A DNA stretch of 44,105 nucleotides. It comes from Planctomycetota bacterium. GTDB lineage: Bacteria > Planctomycetota > JAJSAM01 > JAJVHW01. The notes under the pieces were generated by a model. It made no database searches. It was not told where the DNA came from and saw only the letters and a list, made by a program, of their open reading frames with translations. The stretch lies in assembly GCA_022072415.1 (NCBI GenBank), contig JAJVHW010000088.1, forward strand, positions 1 to 44,105, in the 5' to 3' direction. Position numbers and translations under genes: made by a program. This document shows, piece after piece, positions 3,515 to 11,672 of this stretch (position 1 is its first letter; each line of letters starts with the position of its first letter).

Positions 3515-3765
3515 GGCGTCGTCCCGAAACAACTGACACTCTTCGTCATGCGGGTTGCGATGTCCGTCGCCGGAACACTCTGCACGCACGGTTCGCAACC
3601 CGCACGCCAGCAAGCTGCACTGCGATGCGGCGGGCAGTCATGTCAACTGCCTGCTGCGTTGGGCTCGCGCCGCAACTCTCTCCTTTGAGTTGGCGCCGCT
3701 CGCCCGCCTTGCAGCCGACGCGCCGCATCGCGGCCAAGTGTGTCACTTGTTTCGGGAAGACGCCT
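3514..3765. repeat. 252-bp inverted-repeat-bounded, hairpin-rich element (MITE-like)
   Basis: The ends are near-perfect inverted repeats: 3514-3539 pairs with 3740-3765 at 24 of 26 positions and shares the core TCCCGAAACAA. Inside are a perfect 12-bp inverted repeat (TGCGGGTTGCGA near 3549 and its complement near 3593), a GGCAGT/ACTGCC hairpin near 3641-3660, and a GCGCCGCAACTC/GAGTTGGCGC stem near 3669-3700. The only internal frame (70 aa from 3555) is not convincing. The size and terminal repeats fit a non-autonomous miniature element or a structured intergenic repeat. It fills the whole gap between the HAD gene and the convergent receiver gene. Confidence 0.6.
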
Positions 3766-3772
3766 GAGGCCG

Positions 3773-4738
3773 CTACCCGCCCGTGCAGCGCGCGCAGCGG
3801 AACTGCCCGCGCACGCCGTTGTCCGTCGTCGGATCCGGCGCGAGGCGGAGGAGCAGCGTCGATCCGCACACGGGGCAGTTGAGGTCCGCGGGCAGGCCGA
3901 GCGACGCCGCGAGCTGCGCGGCCTGGCCGACGGCCCGGTTGAGCATCGTGTCGAACGACTGCGATGCGGCGATCGTCGCCGTGCGCTGGACGGACTGCCC
4001 GGGATCGTCGGCGAGAGGCGATGCAGAGGTCGCCGCGATCGCCGCGATCGGCGCGCGGGGAGCGGGGATGTCGTCGTCCTCGTCGAGCACGCCGTACGGC
4101 GGGAGCCGTTCCGGCTGCGCCGGGTGGACCGCCGGCCGACGCGGGGGCGAGGACGCGCTCATCGACGGCGAGGGCAGCGACTGCGCCGTCGGCGATCGCT
4201 GCGAACCGGGCATCCACGACTGTCCCGCGGGCGGGTGGCCCGACGCGTGCGTGTCCGGCTTCCGGAAACGCCGCGCGATGTCGTCCACGGCGCTCGGCAC
4301 CGACGCCGACGGCCCCGTCGGGAGCGTGCGCGCGGGCACCGCGGGCCGCCGCTTCGAATCGAGGATGCCCGCGATCTCGTGCACGATGTCCCGCGGCCCG
4401 AGCCGCGCCTTCTCGAACACCCCGTCGGCTCCCTCGCGCATCGCCCGGTCCACGAAGTCGGCGTCGCCCGGCTGCGCGAGCACGTACACGGTCGTCGCGG
4501 CGGTCTCCTGCCGCTGGCGGAGGAGCCGGAGCACCTCGACGCCGTTGCGGTAGGGGATGCGCAGGTCGAGGAGGATCAGGTCCCACGCCTTCTGCTGCGC
4601 CGCGGTGAGCGCCTCGTAGCCGTCGGACGCGGTCGTCACGTCCCAGCCCTCGGCGCGGAGCCGCTGCCCGTACCCCCGCTGGATGACGGGGTCGTCGTCC
4701 ACGAGCAGGATGCGGACCCCGTGGGAAGGCACGCTCAT
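3773..4738 (-). CDS. Receiver-domain response regulator with C-terminal zinc ribbon (321 aa)
   Basis: Residues about 8-125 form a CheY-like receiver: acidic pair in LLVDDDPV (D14, D15), phosphoacceptor D58 in LILLDLRIP, and conserved K110 in VFEKA. The usual switch Thr/Ser is Ala (VLAQP, A88). A long Pro/Ser-rich low-complexity linker (about 130-270) follows. The last 35 residues hold two Cys pairs, CPVCG and CARC, a probable zinc ribbon. No DNA-binding HTH or enzymatic output domain is seen, so it may act by protein contact. The ATG at 4738 begins the receiver fold. The same frame stays open to 6793, but that part is shadow of the selenoprotein gene. The partner kinase is not in the window. 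Confidence 0.8.
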   Translation of the reverse strand: MSVPSHGVRILLVDDDPVIQRGYGQRLRAEGWDVTTASDGYEALTAAQQKAWDLILLDLRIPYRNGVEVLRLLRQRQETAATTVYVLAQPGDADFVDRAMREGADGVFEKARLGPRDIVHEIAGILDSKRRPAVPARTLPTGPSASVPSAVDDIARRFRKPDTHASGHPPAGQSWMPGSQRSPTAQSLPSPSMSASSPPRRPAVHPAQPERLPPYGVLDEDDDIPAPRAPIAAIAATSASPLADDPGQSVQRTATIAASQSFDTMLNRAVGQAAQLAASLGLPADLNCPVCGSTLLLRLAPDPTTDNGVRGQFRCARCTGG

Positions 4739-4957
4739 GCGACGGCCTTCCGCCGCGCCGGAAGGGCGCGGACGCGGCCCGCATGGCGGGCTCGGGGGGC
4801 GGCGGGCAGGAGCGAGGACCCCATCTCGGTCTGTCCCGGCTATCGGTTTGAGAAAGGCGGGAACATGAGGGGCCTGCCGAGGAATGTGTGGGAGCCTTTC
4901 CGGGTACTCCCGGAGACGTTTCCGGGGATCACCCGCACCGCCTGAAGAGGAGGCTCC

Positions 4958-6202
4958 ATGATCCGCGTCCGCCGCACCCTTGCCGCCGCCGCCGCCCTGA
5001 GCGCGTTCGCGCTCGCCGCCGCGGTCCCGGCCGCAACGCTCCTTCCGGCCGCGCCCGCCGCCGCCGCCGACGACGCGCCCTCCGCGGGCGGCGTCGAGTG
5101 GATCGAGACGTGGGACGCCGGCAAGAAGGCCGGCCTCGCGCAGAAGAAGGTGCTCTTCGTCTACGTCCACCGCGTGAACCCCGGCTGACCCCCCTGCAAG
5201 GCGCTGGAGAGCAGTGTGTTCTCCAAGGAGTCGAGCAAGGTCCTGTCCGAGAAGGCCGTCGCCGTCCGCCTGACCGGCGGGAACGACATCACGCAGGAAG
5301 TCAGCGACTTCATGCAGAAGTACGGCGTGCGCGGCTATCCGACGATGTACGTCATGAACGCGCAGGGACACGTGCTCGTGAAGCAGGTGGGCCGCTCGCT
5401 CGAGGCGATGGAGAAGGCGATCGCCGACGGCGCCGCCGCCCAGGCCGAGTGGGACGCGCTCGCCGCGAAGACCGACCCCGCGAGCCGCGAGGCGCAGCGG
5501 AAGATGCTCGCCGACCGCATGGCGTGGGACGACCTGCTCCCGCTCGTCGAGGCCGCGCACAAGGCCGCGCCGACCGCCGCGACCGCGCAGGAGATGGCCG
5601 CCGTCCTCCGCTCCACGGGGAAGAAGGCCGAGGAGAAGGCGCACCTCGCCGCTTCGGTGAAGGCGTTCCCCGACGCGGCGGACCGCACCGCGTGGCGCCT
5701 CCGCATGGCCACGATGGACCACGACATCATGCCCCGCTCCCGCGAGGAGTTCGTGGCCGCCGCGGAGAAGGCCGCCGCCGGCATCGGCGCGCTCCTCGCC
5801 GAGGTGGAGAAGGAGGGCAAGCCCGCCGCCACCGCCGAGGTGCGCATGGCCCTTGCCGCCGCGCTCGGCCAGGCCGGCAAGTCCGCCGAGTCCGAGACCG
5901 AGCTCGACAAGCTCGTCGCCGACGGCCCCGCGAAGGGCGTCCCCGCCGCGACCTTCGCCCAGGCGCTCATGGGCAAGGCCAACGCCCACTTCCGCAAGAA
6001 GGAACTCGAGCCCGCACTCGGCTTCCTGAAGCGCATCGTGGCCGAGTGCCCCGACAGCCCCGAAGCCAAGCAGGCCCCGAGCGGCATCGACCGCCTCACG
6101 AAGATGCTCGAGGCGGAGAAGGCCAAGTCCGGCGGCGGCGCACCCGCGGGCGGCTCCGGCGGCGGCTCCGGCGGCTCCGGCGGCGGCGACGCGCCGAAGT
6201 AG
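4958..6202 (+). CDS. Secreted thioredoxin-fold selenoprotein, UGA at codon 77 read as selenocysteine (414 aa)
   Basis: The ATG at 4958 (AAGAGGAGG site 4-5 nt upstream) opens a signal peptide of about 37 residues. Codon 77 is TGA (5186-5188), and the same frame then runs to 6202. Around it the protein reads LFVYVHRVNPG-U-PPCKALE, so the TGA occupies the first redox cysteine of a C-x-x-C site, with C80 as the second. A cis-proline motif GYPTMYV follows at the normal thioredoxin distance. Residues about 170-390 are helical, possibly TPR-like, and the tail is Gly/Ser-rich. A SECIS-like hairpin starts 16 nt after the TGA. The predicted product is an exported thiol/selenol redox protein. The alternative, a nonsense mutation in a pseudogene, is less likely given the intact frame and motif. 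selA, selB, selC and selD are not in the window. Confidence 0.85.
5186..5225 (+). promoter_or_regulatory. Candidate bacterial SECIS element following in-frame UGA
   Basis: The TGA at 5186-5188 is followed after 16 nt by a perfect 6-bp stem, TGGAGA (5205-5210) with TCTCCA (5220-5225). The 9-nt loop GCAGTGTGT contains the G-U dinucleotides expected for SelB recognition. The distance from UGA to loop (22 nt) resembles that of known bacterial SECIS elements. The stem is short, so this is a candidate until folded and compared with homologues. Confidence 0.6.
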
Positions 6203-6616: not shown

Positions 6617-6694
6617 CGGGGCGTAGCTCAGCCTGGCTAGAGCGCTTGCTTCGGGAGCAAGAGGCCGGAGGTTCAAATCCTCTCGCCCCGACCA
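6617..6694 (+). tRNA. tRNA-Pro (anticodon CGG)
   Basis: The cloverleaf is complete by eye. The 7-bp acceptor stem is CGGGGCG (6617-6623) with CGCCCCG (6684-6690). There is a D arm with GTAGCTCAGC, and an anticodon stem CTTGC/GCAAG around the loop TTCGGGA, which gives anticodon CGG. The T loop is TTCAAAT, and A plus an encoded CCA follow at 6691-6694. It reads CCG proline codons. Its 3' end is the likely attachment site of the mobile element that follows. Confidence 0.93.
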
Positions 6695-6963
6695 CAACGC
6701 GGCCTCCGCGAAAGACTTACGGCGACGTAGGTCGAGGTCGGTCCCGGCCGAACGGCCGCCGTTTGCAGGCTCAGTTCGCCCAGAGTTGCGCAAGAGTTGC
6801 TCTAGAGTTGCGCACCGCCGCGGGACGCAGGCACCACCTGCATCCCGCGGCTGGTGGCTCCCGCGATGTCGCCGCAGCTCAGGCTCCCGGAAGCAAGTGA
6901 GCGAAGCAAGCGCGCTTCGCGTTCCGCTGGGCGTCGCCGCTCTCCGCTACCGTCCGTTGACTC
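6695..6963. repeat. Junction region after tRNA-Pro: 11-bp direct repeats and hairpin
   Basis: Three 11-bp units lie head to tail at 6782-6814: AGAGTTGCGCA, AGAGTTGCTCT and AGAGTTGCGCA. The first and third are identical. Just after is a 14-bp stem with one mismatch, 6818-6831 with 6837-6850, around a 5-nt loop. Repeats spaced by one helical turn next to a tRNA attachment site could be arm-type binding sites for the integrase or operators for the SIR2 gene. No promoter hexamers could be fixed with confidence. Confidence 0.45.
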
Positions 6964-8730
6964 ATGGGTGATTCGCAGTCCAGTAACGTGGTGTTCCTGC
7001 TCGGCGCCGGGGCGTCGATCGCCGCCGGAGTTCCGGACACTCTCGGCTTCGCGCGCGAGTTCCAGGAGTCGGTCAGGTCGCGCGCGAGCGCGGCAGGTCC
7101 AGCGGGCGGACCGGACCCGGATGTTGCGCCCAGCGACGCGGAACACCTGGACTACGTCTTCGAGACCCTGAAGCCGCATGCGCGCGAGCGCCGCGTCGAC
7201 ATCGAACTTCTGCTCGAGGTGCTGACTCGCCTCGCGGACTGGGACGCCGACACTGCGCTCGCCTTCTGCAGCGACCGGGAGCTCGGCCGCCCGGGGCTGC
7301 GCGAATCGGCGGGTCGGCTCGCGAGGCTCCTCCGCGACTTCATCAAGAGCAAGGCGTTCGTGGATCCGTCGCGGGTCCAGCATCTTGCGCCGCTCGCGCA
7401 GTACGTGACGCACCACGGACGACTCGACATCGCGACACTCAACTACGACACCGCGATCGAGGAGTTCAGCGCAGCTCACGGGATCGAGCTGCACGACGGG
7501 TTCCGCCCCGAGTGGAGCCAGGACTCGATCGGCAAGGCGGCGCAGGGAATCCGCCTGATGAAGCTGCACGGGTCCGTCACGTGGTACCAGACCCCGGAGG
7601 GCCGCTACCGCAAGGAGAGTATCAACGTTCCGCAGTCGCGGGTCCGGATCGTGCAGGGCGGCGAGTCCGAGAGCCTGATGCTCTTCCCGGTCCGCAAGTG
7701 GGCCTACTCCGAGCCGATGGTGGGTCTCCTGTTCGAGTTCAAGAGGGTGCTGGAGGCGGAGTCCACGCGCGTCCTCGTCGTCGCGGGCTACTCCTTCCGC
7801 GACGACCATGTGAAGGTCGCGATCCGCGATGCGGTGCGCAACAACCGGCGGCTTGAGATCGTGCTCCTCGACCCGGATGCGTTCGGGATCAAGAGGCGCC
7901 TGCTCGCGCCCTGCGGCCAGGACTCCTGGCCGGAGGCGATGGAGCCGCGCATTCTGTGTCTGCCCTACCGATTCGAGCGGCTGCTTCCAGAGCTGAAGCA
8001 CAGGCTGCTCCGGTCCCTACTCTCCGGGCTCGATGCGGACGAACAGGAGCGCCGGCACCTTGCCGAGCGCGGCACGAAGAACTCGCCGGAGAGTGCAATG
8101 GCGCACTTCGCGGACTGTCAGCACGTCTCCAGGTTCGAGTCCTACATGGCGAGCTGCGAACCCGTCCGGACCGCGGAGCTCACGCTACGCGAGATCTCCG
8201 TCCGACTCGGTCAGGCGATCTGCTCCGATCCGACGATGGCGTTGGCGAGCCAGGCGCAGATCATTCAAGTCTTGCGAAACAGGCTCGTCGACCATCTCTA
8301 CTGCGACGTGCGAGTCGGCGACCGGGTCGTGCGCGCGAATTCGGAGTGGAGAACGGGCTCGCAGTCGCACGGTGGAAACGGCGCCGCGCAGTTGATCGAA
8401 GGACTCGCAGAGAGAGTGCAGCCGTACGTACGCGCCGCGCTCGGGAACCCGGCTTGGGGCGATCTGCTCGTCGAACGTCTTCGCGCAGTGTCGACCTACC
8501 TCCGGGAGGTCCACCGACTCACGGGCGACCTCGTCGAGTGTGCCGCGCGGCTCGGTGTCGATGAGTCCGTCAAGGCCGAAGCTCAGAGGCTCGTCGCCCA
8601 GGTTGCGCATCAGAAGATCGGGAGGTCGCTGGTCGGGCCCTCGGAGCCAGTGACCGCGGCCATGACTACGTGCCTGCGAGACCGGGTGTCGGAGATCCTG
8701 GAAGTTCTCGCTCCGCCCAGCTCGATCTAG
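6964..8730 (+). CDS. SIR2-domain protein, putative NAD-dependent defence effector (588 aa)
   Basis: The N-terminal half is a SIR2-type NAD-binding domain. It has LLGAGASIAAGVPD (G14-S18, dinucleotide binding), TLNYDT (N160, D162), the catalytic-type HG of KLHGS (H202) and VVAGYSFRDDH (G275-H282). The C-terminal 270 residues are helical and match nothing I recognise. Proteins with this layout are common in anti-phage systems, where SIR2 depletes NAD when infection is sensed. A defence role here is inferred from the domain and from its position as first gene behind the tRNA in a mobile element. The ATG at 6964 has no clear ribosome site. It stands alone on this strand, so any partner would be the nuclease gene on the opposite strand. 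Confidence 0.8.
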   Translation: MGDSQSSNVVFLLGAGASIAAGVPDTLGFAREFQESVRSRASAAGPAGGPDPDVAPSDAEHLDYVFETLKPHARERRVDIELLLEVLTRLADWDADTALAFCSDRELGRPGLRESAGRLARLLRDFIKSKAFVDPSRVQHLAPLAQYVTHHGRLDIATLNYDTAIEEFSAAHGIELHDGFRPEWSQDSIGKAAQGIRLMKLHGSVTWYQTPEGRYRKESINVPQSRVRIVQGGESESLMLFPVRKWAYSEPMVGLLFEFKRVLEAESTRVLVVAGYSFRDDHVKVAIRDAVRNNRRLEIVLLDPDAFGIKRRLLAPCGQDSWPEAMEPRILCLPYRFERLLPELKHRLLRSLLSGLDADEQERRHLAERGTKNSPESAMAHFADCQHVSRFESYMASCEPVRTAELTLREISVRLGQAICSDPTMALASQAQIIQVLRNRLVDHLYCDVRVGDRVVRANSEWRTGSQSHGGNGAAQLIEGLAERVQPYVRAALGNPAWGDLLVERLRAVSTYLREVHRLTGDLVECAARLGVDESVKAEAQRLVAQVAHQKIGRSLVGPSEPVTAAMTTCLRDRVSEILEVLAPPSSI

Positions 8731-9435
8731 AACGCGGCAGTGAGTTCAGGCCTACCTGCGGAGCGTAGGGCGCGCAGGCTCGGTCCGACGCGCCGTGGCT
8801 GCGTCCGAGGCAGCGTCCCAGCGCGTCTGGGAGGAACGAACGGCAGTCGCCAGGTTGATCGATGCAGTCCGTGAGACGACCATCGGCATGGCGCAGAGCC
8901 GCCTTGGCAGGACTCCCACCCTGGGCCTGCCCGGGACGGAGGAGCGTCCGTGCACGGCAGTGGTGCCGTGAGATCGCCGTCATGCCGCCTTGCGAGTTGG
9001 CCTGCGGGTGGTCCCTCCGACCGTCGAGAACAGCGGCGAGGCACATCGAGGGATCGGACAGATCAGGCGGCCCGCCGAAGCACGCTCACGAAGACCGTCG
9101 GCGCCGCCCGCTACCAGATAGACGAGCGCGTCCTCCGAGTCCGCGTCCAGATCGAGCGCGAACACCTGGTGAACTGCCGACCTGCGGAACTCGGCGTGAA
9201 TCTTGTCCAACGGCGGAGCCCTCCCAGTCGGCGGCGCACCTCATCCTTCGAGTCGATGAGATGGCGCGACGCATGGCTCCGAGGATGACCGCTCCGGGGG
9301 ACACCGTGTTGGCGCGGCGGCGAGACATGGCGGGATGCAGCGCGGACCGGCGACGTCGCCGCCTGCCGGCTCGCTGGGGAGAACCCCTCCAGCGACGCCC
9401 CACGAGACCGGCTCCAGGAATCTGCGGCCCGCCTC
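8731..9435 (-). pseudogene. Gene-poor stretch with a possible broken leftward gene (8980-9350)
   Basis: No intact gene is convincing in these 705 bp. On the minus strand one frame from about 9241 to 8980 reads well (HQVFALDLDADSEDALVY) but has no good start. A different minus frame just upstream contains HLIDSKDEVRRRLGGLRR, which would join it through a single frameshift near 9240. I read this as the possible remains of a small gene whose two halves are in different frames. It is also possible that both are chance open frames. Bases 8731-8979 hold nothing I can name. Confidence 0.25.
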
Positions 9436-10071
9436 TCAGCGACCCGTCGCCAGCAATCGGCCGAGGAGCAGGACACCCGCGTGCCACGCGCCGCGGGGAC
9501 CTTGCGGCGGCCATCGCATCGGCGGGGCCTCGCCCCACACCGCGAACTGCGCCGCGCCCGAGTCGAGAAGCCGCGTAGCGGCGCTCAAGGCAGACTCCCG
9601 GACGCACTCGGTCTCCTCCCTGCGACGCGAGTAGGGCGCGCCGAATGCGGCGGCGATGCGGAGCCCATGGCCGTCGGGGTAATCGGCGACCTGCCGTTCC
9701 GCGGCGTCGAGCATTGACGTGAGGACCGTTCCGAGCCGCTCCTCGCCCGGCCTGACCGAGATCCAGTCGTGCTTCAGCTCAAGCACGTAGTCCGAGCTGC
9801 CGATCCCGACGTAGAGGTCCGCTCTCCCTCGCCGCCGGCCTCCTGGCTTGCGGATGGCCCACTCCTCGACCGCCACGCCGCCAGCAAGCCAGGCCGCGGT
9901 TGCAACGGTGCCCACCAGCGAACGCTCCTGCTGCCACGCGAGCGTGTCCTCGCGGTCATGAAGCGCCGGGTACTCGGCGACCATCCGTGCCCATCGCGCC
10001 AGCACCGGGCGGAGAGGCTCCAGTTCCGATGCTCGGATCTCGCCCCCGGGGTCCGTTCTGAAGCTCGACAT
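9436..10071 (-). CDS. Putative PD-(D/E)XK nuclease-like protein (211 aa)
   Basis: The central segment GRADLYVG...DYVLELKHDW has the D...E-x-K spacing of PD-(D/E)XK nucleases (about residues 85-106), preceded by a helical region with WQQERSLVG. The family includes restriction and repair enzymes and nuclease effectors. The exact fold cannot be proved by eye. The start at 10071 is preferred because GGAGGTG lies 11 nt upstream; an earlier ATG at 10137 lacks a site. It lies downstream of the integrase gene on the same strand with a gap of about 160 bp, and faces the SIR2 gene across a decayed stretch. It could be part of a SIR2-associated defence module or an unrelated cargo gene. Confidence 0.55.
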   Translation of the reverse strand: MSSFRTDPGGEIRASELEPLRPVLARWARMVAEYPALHDREDTLAWQQERSLVGTVATAAWLAGGVAVEEWAIRKPGGRRRGRADLYVGIGSSDYVLELKHDWISVRPGEERLGTVLTSMLDAAERQVADYPDGHGLRIAAAFGAPYSRRREETECVRESALSAATRLLDSGAAQFAVWGEAPPMRWPPQGPRGAWHAGVLLLGRLLATGR

Positions 10072-10234
10072 CTCTTGGCGCCACCTCCGCGGCGGTACGA
10101 TGCTCGCCGAACCGGCGCGAGGTGGGAAGCCGGTCAATCCCGACGCTGGGTCGAAGGGCGGCGCCGTGCCGCTGGCCGGGACGTGCGGCGACTGTCAGTT
10201 GTCCCTCGGACCGCCCGCGTGACGGCGCCGTCCG

Positions 10235-11530
10235 CTACGTCCCGAAGTTCATCCCCATGACCGCCTCGCGCCTCCGCTCCGAGAGGGCCTTCGCGTAGAT
10301 CTGCGTCGTCGAGAGGTCGGCGTGCCCGAGCTGCTGCTGGAGGTCGGTCACGGCGCCCGCGCGTTCGAGGAAGTAGGTCGCGAAGGTGTGGCGGAAGCTG
10401 TGGAAGGTGAGATCCGCGCGGCCGGCGAGGCCAGCGCGGGCCAGCGTGATGCGCATGCTCGACTTGACGCTCTGGTACGGGCGGTTTCGCCGGGAGAGGA
10501 AGACGTGGTCGCCGGGACCGGCGGGAAGCCCCGTCTTCCGCTGCCGAGCGCGGAGCCGGTCGAGCTCCGCATGGAGCTCTGGATGCAGGTCGAGCGAGTC
10601 GCTCGATCCGGTCTTCTGCCGGAAGAGCGCGATCTTCCCGCGGCCGAAGTCGATGTCCTGCCACCTGAGCCGCGTGAGCTCGCACTTGCGCGCGCCGGTG
10701 AAAACAGCTGCTGCGACGAGTCCCCGGAACCGCCAAGGGGCCTTCCGGATCATCGTCCGGACATCCGCCTTCCGAAAGACGCCGCGGGAGTGCCGGGGCT
10801 CCTTCAGCTTGCGGAGCCCGGCGATGGGGTTGGCCGGGATCAGGCCGTCGAGCACGGCCTCGGCCAGAACGCGCGAGAGGAACTGCTGGTCGCGGTTGAC
10901 CGTCGCCGCCGACACCGTGCGCAGGGAGGGCTCGACCGACCGTCGCGCGTTGGGCACGTTGCGCACCCCGCGCCGCCACGCCCGGTAGTCGAGGAAGCTC
11001 GACGCCGTGACATCGCAAAGCCGTACGGCCGGGCGGTCGTCCCGCGGCCCGAAGAATCCAGAGAGTGCGCGGAGGTTCGCCTCGTAGAGCCCGATCGTCC
11101 CCCTCGCGAGCGAGGCGCGAAGCCGGCGATCGACGAGCTGCCTCGCATACTCCACGAGCGGCGGCGATGCGCCGGGCGTTCTGCGAGCGGCAGGACCGCC
11201 GGCCTGCGGCGCCGGACGGAAGGTGGCGCGCGCCGCGTCGATCGGCGCCCGCGCGCCCTTAATGACGTCTTCGTTCAGATCGGATGTGACGCCCCGCGCG
11301 GCGCGGCTCGCCCCGGCGTGGGTCCTCGGCGGCACGTAGCCGTCGTCGTGCATGCGGATTCGAAGCTCGTCGAGGAACTCCTCGGCGTCGCGCTCGGTGT
11401 CGAAGTGCCGGGTGAGCCTGCGCCGCGCGACGGGGTCGCTCCACTGGGCCGACCAGGTCGTCCGCCCCGACGGCCAGGAGCGGGCGAACACCCGCCCGAA
11501 CCGCCGTCTCGTGCTGGTTCGATCGCTCAT
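10235..11530 (-). CDS. int: Tyrosine recombinase / integrase (431 aa)
   Basis: This is a site-specific recombinase that would integrate and excise the element. The catalytic set is complete: R281 (TGARKCELTRLRW), K306, H377-x-x-R380 (HSFRHTFAT), H403 (QLGHADLST) and Y412 (TQIYAKA). Residues 10-70 form an arm-type or AP2-like N-terminal region with Trp residues, and about 125-235 is a SAM-like core-binding domain. The start at 11530 is chosen for GGAGG 7 nt upstream; an ATG 7 codons earlier is possible. It points toward tRNA-Pro about 3.5 kb away, which fits integration at that tRNA, although cargo genes lie between. Confidence 0.92.
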   Translation of the reverse strand: MSDRTSTRRRFGRVFARSWPSGRTTWSAQWSDPVARRRLTRHFDTERDAEEFLDELRIRMHDDGYVPPRTHAGASRAARGVTSDLNEDVIKGARAPIDAARATFRPAPQAGGPAARRTPGASPPLVEYARQLVDRRLRASLARGTIGLYEANLRALSGFFGPRDDRPAVRLCDVTASSFLDYRAWRRGVRNVPNARRSVEPSLRTVSAATVNRDQQFLSRVLAEAVLDGLIPANPIAGLRKLKEPRHSRGVFRKADVRTMIRKAPWRFRGLVAAAVFTGARKCELTRLRWQDIDFGRGKIALFRQKTGSSDSLDLHPELHAELDRLRARQRKTGLPAGPGDHVFLSRRNRPYQSVKSSMRITLARAGLAGRADLTFHSFRHTFATYFLERAGAVTDLQQQLGHADLSTTQIYAKALSERRREAVMGMNFGT

Positions 11531-11672
11531 GAGGCTGCCTCCGTCCTGCAACTCCGGGAGCCCGGAGCAAGCGGCATCGATTGACGCTCTGCGCGCGGCC
11601 GGGATCGAGTGTGTTCGGGCGAGGCAGGGCGCCGTGCGCGGCTGGCGCCGAGGCGCGTCGAGAGGCCCGGAA

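Follow-up and report, generated by a model that had tools for sequence, protein, structure and literature searches.

Chlamydiae, the hosts of DsbH, belong with the planctomycetes to the PVC superphylum. Chlamydial DsbH has been described as an oxidoreductase acting in the reducing direction, with a presumed part in maintaining a reducing periplasm (PMC5193440). Thioredoxin_2-type UxxC selenoproteins have also been described, as in the GOS 'Trx-like 2' group (cd02953, the DsbD-gamma type), in which Cys forms dominate (22 Sec versus 2,098 Cys; PMC2398784). Here we describe a gene in a 44,105-nucleotide stretch of DNA (the window), contig 13 of a planctomycete draft MAG (3.86 Mb, 76% complete), which would encode an exported thioredoxin-fold redox protein with selenocysteine recoded from an in-frame TGA. 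We put the probability of this reading at about 0.93.

The gene product has a PF13098 match above cut-off, a CxxC-type motif, a cis-Pro and a thioredoxin fold, which place it in the thioredoxin superfamily. No NCBIfam 20.0 model reaches its cut-off for the family; the nearest names are DsbH, TsoB and DsbD, none of them near cut-off for the window protein. DsbH (NF043050), likewise an exported thioredoxin-fold oxidoreductase, is the best of these neighbours, with weak matches in 7/8 and 20/29 members (best member, E 1.5e-11) and 13.6 bits against a cut-off of 190 for the window protein; 2ju5, annotated DsbH, is the best PDB match in a sequence profile search. Chlamydial DsbH differs in having Cys in place of Sec and in lacking the long C-terminal domain. 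The likeness to DsbD (NF001419; 15.1 against 330 bits) is confined to the gamma-like part, and the membrane domain of DsbD is absent from the window protein. Trx7/PDZ (NF041199) and TsoB (NF045694), the latter a rhodanese/DsbD fusion and both at least in part selenoproteins, share the thioredoxin-like domain and give weak partial matches (E ~1e-5 to 1e-9; cut-offs 300 and 805 bits, respectively), but the motif of Trx7/PDZ is CxxU rather than UxxC. VPGUxxT (NF041382/3) yields weak partial matches at most, below its curated cut-offs, and GOS_C (NF045500), itself a UxxC thioredoxin-like selenoprotein, is not matched by family members in NCBIfam searches. Selenoprotein thioredoxins (PF00085) also have UxxC, and the window protein scores 22 bits against a gathering cut-off of 23.5.

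A 2026 review table includes thioredoxin-type UxxC entries. The nearest, 'Thiol:disulfide interchange protein' WP_011366075.1, has PF13098 and the UxxC position in common with the window family, and no entry clearly matches the family, WP_011366075.1 being known and compared by domain and motif alone. The preliminary description had recognized no described selenoprotein family in the protein; the lack of one holds against NCBIfam 20.0 and the review table, although as a kind Thioredoxin_2-type UxxC selenoproteins were already known. A literature search covering article texts found no description of the family. For planctomycetes P1 and P2, the main text of one study names the selenoproteins FdhA and FmdB (PMC4807772); some family members may be listed, unrecognised, in its table S9, and some may have been binned in the GOS 'Trx-like' groups. 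What appears to be new is the family itself, along with its architecture and its scarcity of Cys forms, the comparison with WP_011366075.1 extending to domain and motif.

Architecture and probable function of the protein

The features of the locus are collected in Table 1. Translation bears out a single in-frame TGA where the thioredoxin motif would have its first redox Cys, with the frame intact to the end of the gene, as first described. GC content by codon position is alike on the two sides of the TGA (0.76/0.58/0.96 5′ and 0.71/0.51/0.97 3′), which indicates a single coding frame through it. Moreover, Pfam Thioredoxin_2 (PF13098) matches residues 62–140, spanning the TGA, with 31.8 bits against a gathering cut-off of 27. 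The motif GUPPCK occupies residues 76–81 and is followed, again as first described, by the cis-Pro motif GYPT at residues 126–129.

Table 1. Features of the selenoprotein locus in the window.
Feature	Position	Strand	Details	Evidence
Shine-Dalgarno-like AGGAGG	4948..4953	+	4 nt 5′ of ATG	sequence
Selenoprotein gene	4958..6202	+	414 aa, ATG to TAG, single in-frame TGA	translation and homologues
Probable signal peptide	4958..5068	+	residues 1–37	sequence; predicted helix 2–21, then low-confidence linker
Thioredoxin-fold domain	5096..5467	+	residues ~47–170	Pfam Thioredoxin_2, AlphaFold2, Foldseek
TGA, predicted selenocysteine 77	5186..5188	+	first redox position of U-P-P-C	TGA-bearing homologues
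Resolving Cys80 of U-x-x-C	5195..5197	+		invariant in alignments A1 and A2
Bacterial SECIS hairpin, UGGAGAGCA-GUG-UGUUCUCCA	5205..5225	+	9 bp, 3-nt loop, loop 25 nt past UGA	
cis-Pro P128 of GYPT	5339..5341	+		column P128 invariant in alignments A1 and A2
Helical C-terminal domain, TPR-like	5477..6133	+	residues ~174–392	TPR profiles; lower-confidence model helices

The AlphaFold2 model is confident over the thioredoxin domain (pLDDT mostly 84–97 over residues 51–170) and less so over the helical C-terminal half. Foldseek matches the model to PDIA6, ERp19 and other PDI domains, DsbD-gamma and DsbH, with probability 1.00 to DsbD-gamma, DsbH and PDI domains. A TPR_16 match at residues 298–368 (E=1e-4) lies below its own cut-off, and members of the gene's subfamily match TPR_14 (1e-8) and TPR_6 (6e-8). 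Of the three-part architecture proposed at first, the thioredoxin domain is upheld by Pfam and the model, the signal peptide is probable, with cleavage near AAA-ADD only a guess, and the C-terminal domain is predicted to be TPR-like. An ORF of ~200 codons at another locus of the order (L023; G003:C345:877-1416, minus strand) resembles only the TPR-like C-terminal half and has no thioredoxin domain.

Each of the order's nine genomes encodes DsbD. The home-genome DsbD (L294; G000:C68, minus strand) has a TGA of its own, at locus positions 1102–1104, in place of the first gamma-domain redox Cys (FTGFA-U-INC). The gamma domain also carries a TGA in G003 (L295, UMNC) and G008 (L296, UGNC), and Cys in G005 and G007. 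The fold, the profile neighbours (DsbH, TsoB and DsbD), the presence of DsbD and its TGA together lead us to a model in which the window protein is most likely a disulfide reductase of the periplasm, similar to DsbH and DsbD-gamma and supplied with electrons by DsbD. The signal peptide would export the protein, so that its site of action would be the cell envelope. There, on the pattern of thioredoxin, DsbD-gamma and DsbH, Sec77 would be the nucleophile, attacking a substrate disulfide or oxidized thiol, and Cys80 would resolve the mixed selenenylsulfide; DsbD, itself apparently a UxxC selenoprotein in the home genome, probably keeps the protein reduced. The TPR-like domain may bind a substrate or partner. 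Judged from sequence and model, we regard the disulfide-reductase role as probable.

The choice of a reductase over an oxidase or peroxidase comes from fold and motif, and the same recoding could instead serve an envelope selenol peroxidase or a methionine-sulfoxide/arsenate-type reductase rather than a general disulfide reductase. Reviews give many thioredoxin-fold selenoproteins as peroxidases, the paralogue expansion (several copies per genome in our sample of the phylum) suggests distinct substrates, and in most members UPPC or UGPC is preceded by YFTRSY. We nevertheless consider such an enzyme unlikely: peroxiredoxin, GPx and Msr are absent from the matches in Pfam, NCBIfam and the fold search, and the intact UxxC and cis-Pro, along with DsbD-gamma, DsbH and PDI as neighbours, favour thiol-disulfide exchange.

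Evidence for recoding of the TGA

Two full-length homologues from another genus of the same family have 38% identity to the window protein and carry TGA at the same codon, a conservation that, by the alignment, is far beyond chance. Five further members from the order have UPPC or UPHC and a shorter C-terminal part. With the window protein alone as query, a search of genome contigs gave no matches; the homologue alignment, searched against 392 Planctomycetota genomes, found matches in 104, with the TGA inside the listed match in 87. The preliminary description had looked to homologues for TGA or Cys at this codon between conserved flanks, and this is what they have: TGA, rarely Cys, with both sides conserved. 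The rare replacements are Cys (TGC) and single instances of Ser, Tyr and Leu, never Trp.

The window gene also has a hairpin 3′ of the TGA. Published bacterial SECIS constraints comprise a loop of 3–9 nt with G in its first two positions, a stem of 4–16 bp, a UGA-to-loop distance of 16–37 nt and a minimum free energy of at most −7.5 kcal/mol (PMC13188914). The window hairpin, at −14.1 kcal/mol and with the loop GUG, lies within all four. We folded 48-nt windows of 156 TGA genes, taking as control shuffles of synonymous codons within each gene. Excess structure 3′ of the TGA was confined to windows covering about +18 to +42 (mean z −0.9 to −1.3), and 6.67 of 7 stem pairs were formed, as against 4.85 in the shuffles. 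Since part of the stem lies in conserved codons (LE, FS), the protein itself dictates some of the pairing, an effect for which the synonymous shuffles control. Two registers of the hairpin (stems 20–26/32–38 and 20–25/31–36) together account for 140/156 genes, and there are compensatory pairs, for example C-G, G-C and U-A at offsets 26/32. Eight homologues in which Cys, Ser, Tyr or Leu takes the place of Sec form at most 3–5 stem pairs, as shuffles do: non-Sec homologues have lost the hairpin. A second, weaker folding excess lies ~50–70 nt 5′ of the TGA in family genes (mean z ~−0.9).

The home genome encodes tRNA-Sec with anticodon UCA (80.8 bits), SelA (498 bits) and SelD (376 bits). SelD has its own TGA at GUACK, the known Sec site of this protein. 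SelB was not found in this 76% complete assembly, from which ~24% is missing; an apparent SelB (159 bits, adjoining tRNAs) is EF-Tu-like and was rejected. The other eight genomes of the order all have SelB above cut-off, so incompleteness is the simplest reading of its absence here. The search for sel genes proposed at the outset is thus answered for selA, selD and tRNA-Sec and, within the home genome, not for SelB. Across the sample, SelB is present in 81/87 TGA-bearing genomes and 154/305 others (odds ratio 13, p=1e-14, a value that is optimistic since the genomes are phylogenetically non-independent). The UGA would then be read as selenocysteine through the hairpin, with SelB and Sec-tRNA(UCA), a step for which the genome and RNA evidence is strong.

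Were the TGA a real stop, the gene would yield a 76-residue fragment, and the ORF from GTG 5216 would be a separate protein or a pseudogene. That ORF (5216–6202) is indeed what gene callers would report, as the preliminary description anticipated, and SelB is missing from the assembled home genome; yet the Thioredoxin_2 match runs across the TGA, the TGA and both its flanks are conserved in ~160 homologues, and the SECIS hairpin and Sec machinery are present, which makes a stop highly improbable. Still less credible is a Cys thioredoxin whose TGC or TGT became TGA through a sequencing error. Although the window comes from a draft MAG, the same TGA recurs in genomes sequenced independently by many projects, over 150 homologues with both TGA and SECIS hairpin excluding the error raised at the outset, and the gene has kept the hairpin that non-Sec homologues have lost. 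Genome-wide reassignment of TGA to an amino acid such as Trp, under which a single in-frame TGA would also stay open, is just as implausible in the face of tRNA-Sec, SelA and SelD in the home genome, a homologue (L024) with an internal TGA as U and a second TGA as stop, and replacements that are never Trp. As far as genome sequences can decide, these three readings are refuted.

Extent and meaning of the family

We scanned 85,000 species genomes for the motif Y-F-T-R-[ST]-Y-x-x-[U/C]-[PGAR]-P-C with TGH at the site codon, counting TGA, TGC and TGT alike. There were at least 116 matches, against a chance expectation that we estimate at ~0.7. Whereas GOS 'Trx-like 2' is Cys-dominated, the matches listed here comprise 112 Sec (TGA) and 4 Cys (TGC). 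Their titles are mostly of Planctomycetota, including one record labelled Candidatus Kuenenia stuttgartiensis; single bins among them are labelled Gemmatimonadota, Bacillota and Proteobacteria, which may be misnamed or reflect transfers, and we do not claim that the family is confined to Planctomycetota. The observation is bigger in extent than first supposed: this is a large planctomycete family and, from the genomes searched, one that is widespread and Sec-dominated in the phylum.

In a tree of the thioredoxin core (169 rows, rooting uncertain), the window gene lies within a 10-row, all-Sec clade (support 100/98) whose three members from the order carry TPR matches. Non-Sec rows are scattered over the tree and need at least 12 changes, 7 of them forced by well-supported branches, though Sec losses are overstated because at least two rows scored as non-Sec (L219 and L167) carry the TGA. 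The pattern agrees with an ancestor that had Sec and descendants that lost it repeatedly, subject to the uncertain rooting.

Among 71 neighbouring ORFs there is no common operon or substrate gene beside family members. Two or three family copies, all Sec, adjoin one another in single loci (L101, G118:C29; L107, G382:C77; L129; L131). In the window, the gene is followed by a tRNA-Pro (6617–6694), a SIR2_2-domain protein (6964–8730, plus strand) and a phage-type integrase (10235–11551, minus strand); positions 6617–11551 look like an element integrated at tRNA-Pro, adjoining the selenoprotein gene. An ORF at 3546–4784 (minus strand) looked like a spurious frame. Elsewhere in the order, L029 (G008:C62) and L068 (G001:C169) encode a second exported UxxC protein, in which VY[ML]TKTH-U-PHC precedes a C-terminal region that looks repeat-like. 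It comes near the cut-off of no NCBIfam model and is a candidate for another selenoprotein family.

Many bacterial selenoprotein families are a Sec minority within a large Cys family; the window family is nearly the reverse, across much of a phylum. A recent selenoprotein finder may, according to its authors, miss selenoproteins without Cys homologues (PMC12013277), and the family is a real test case for this limitation. Annotation has probably cut these predicted envelope redox proteins short in many genomes of planctomycetes, among them one labelled Candidatus Kuenenia. We suggest, tentatively and at slightly less than even odds, that Planctomycetota have a dedicated Sec-based envelope reducing system, in which a Sec-containing DsbD would feed an expanded set of near-obligate-Sec, C-terminally specialized secreted UxxC thioredoxins, and which would have been overlooked because discovery methods seek Cys/Sec pairs. 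The family offers a reason for the retention of selenocysteine in the phylum.
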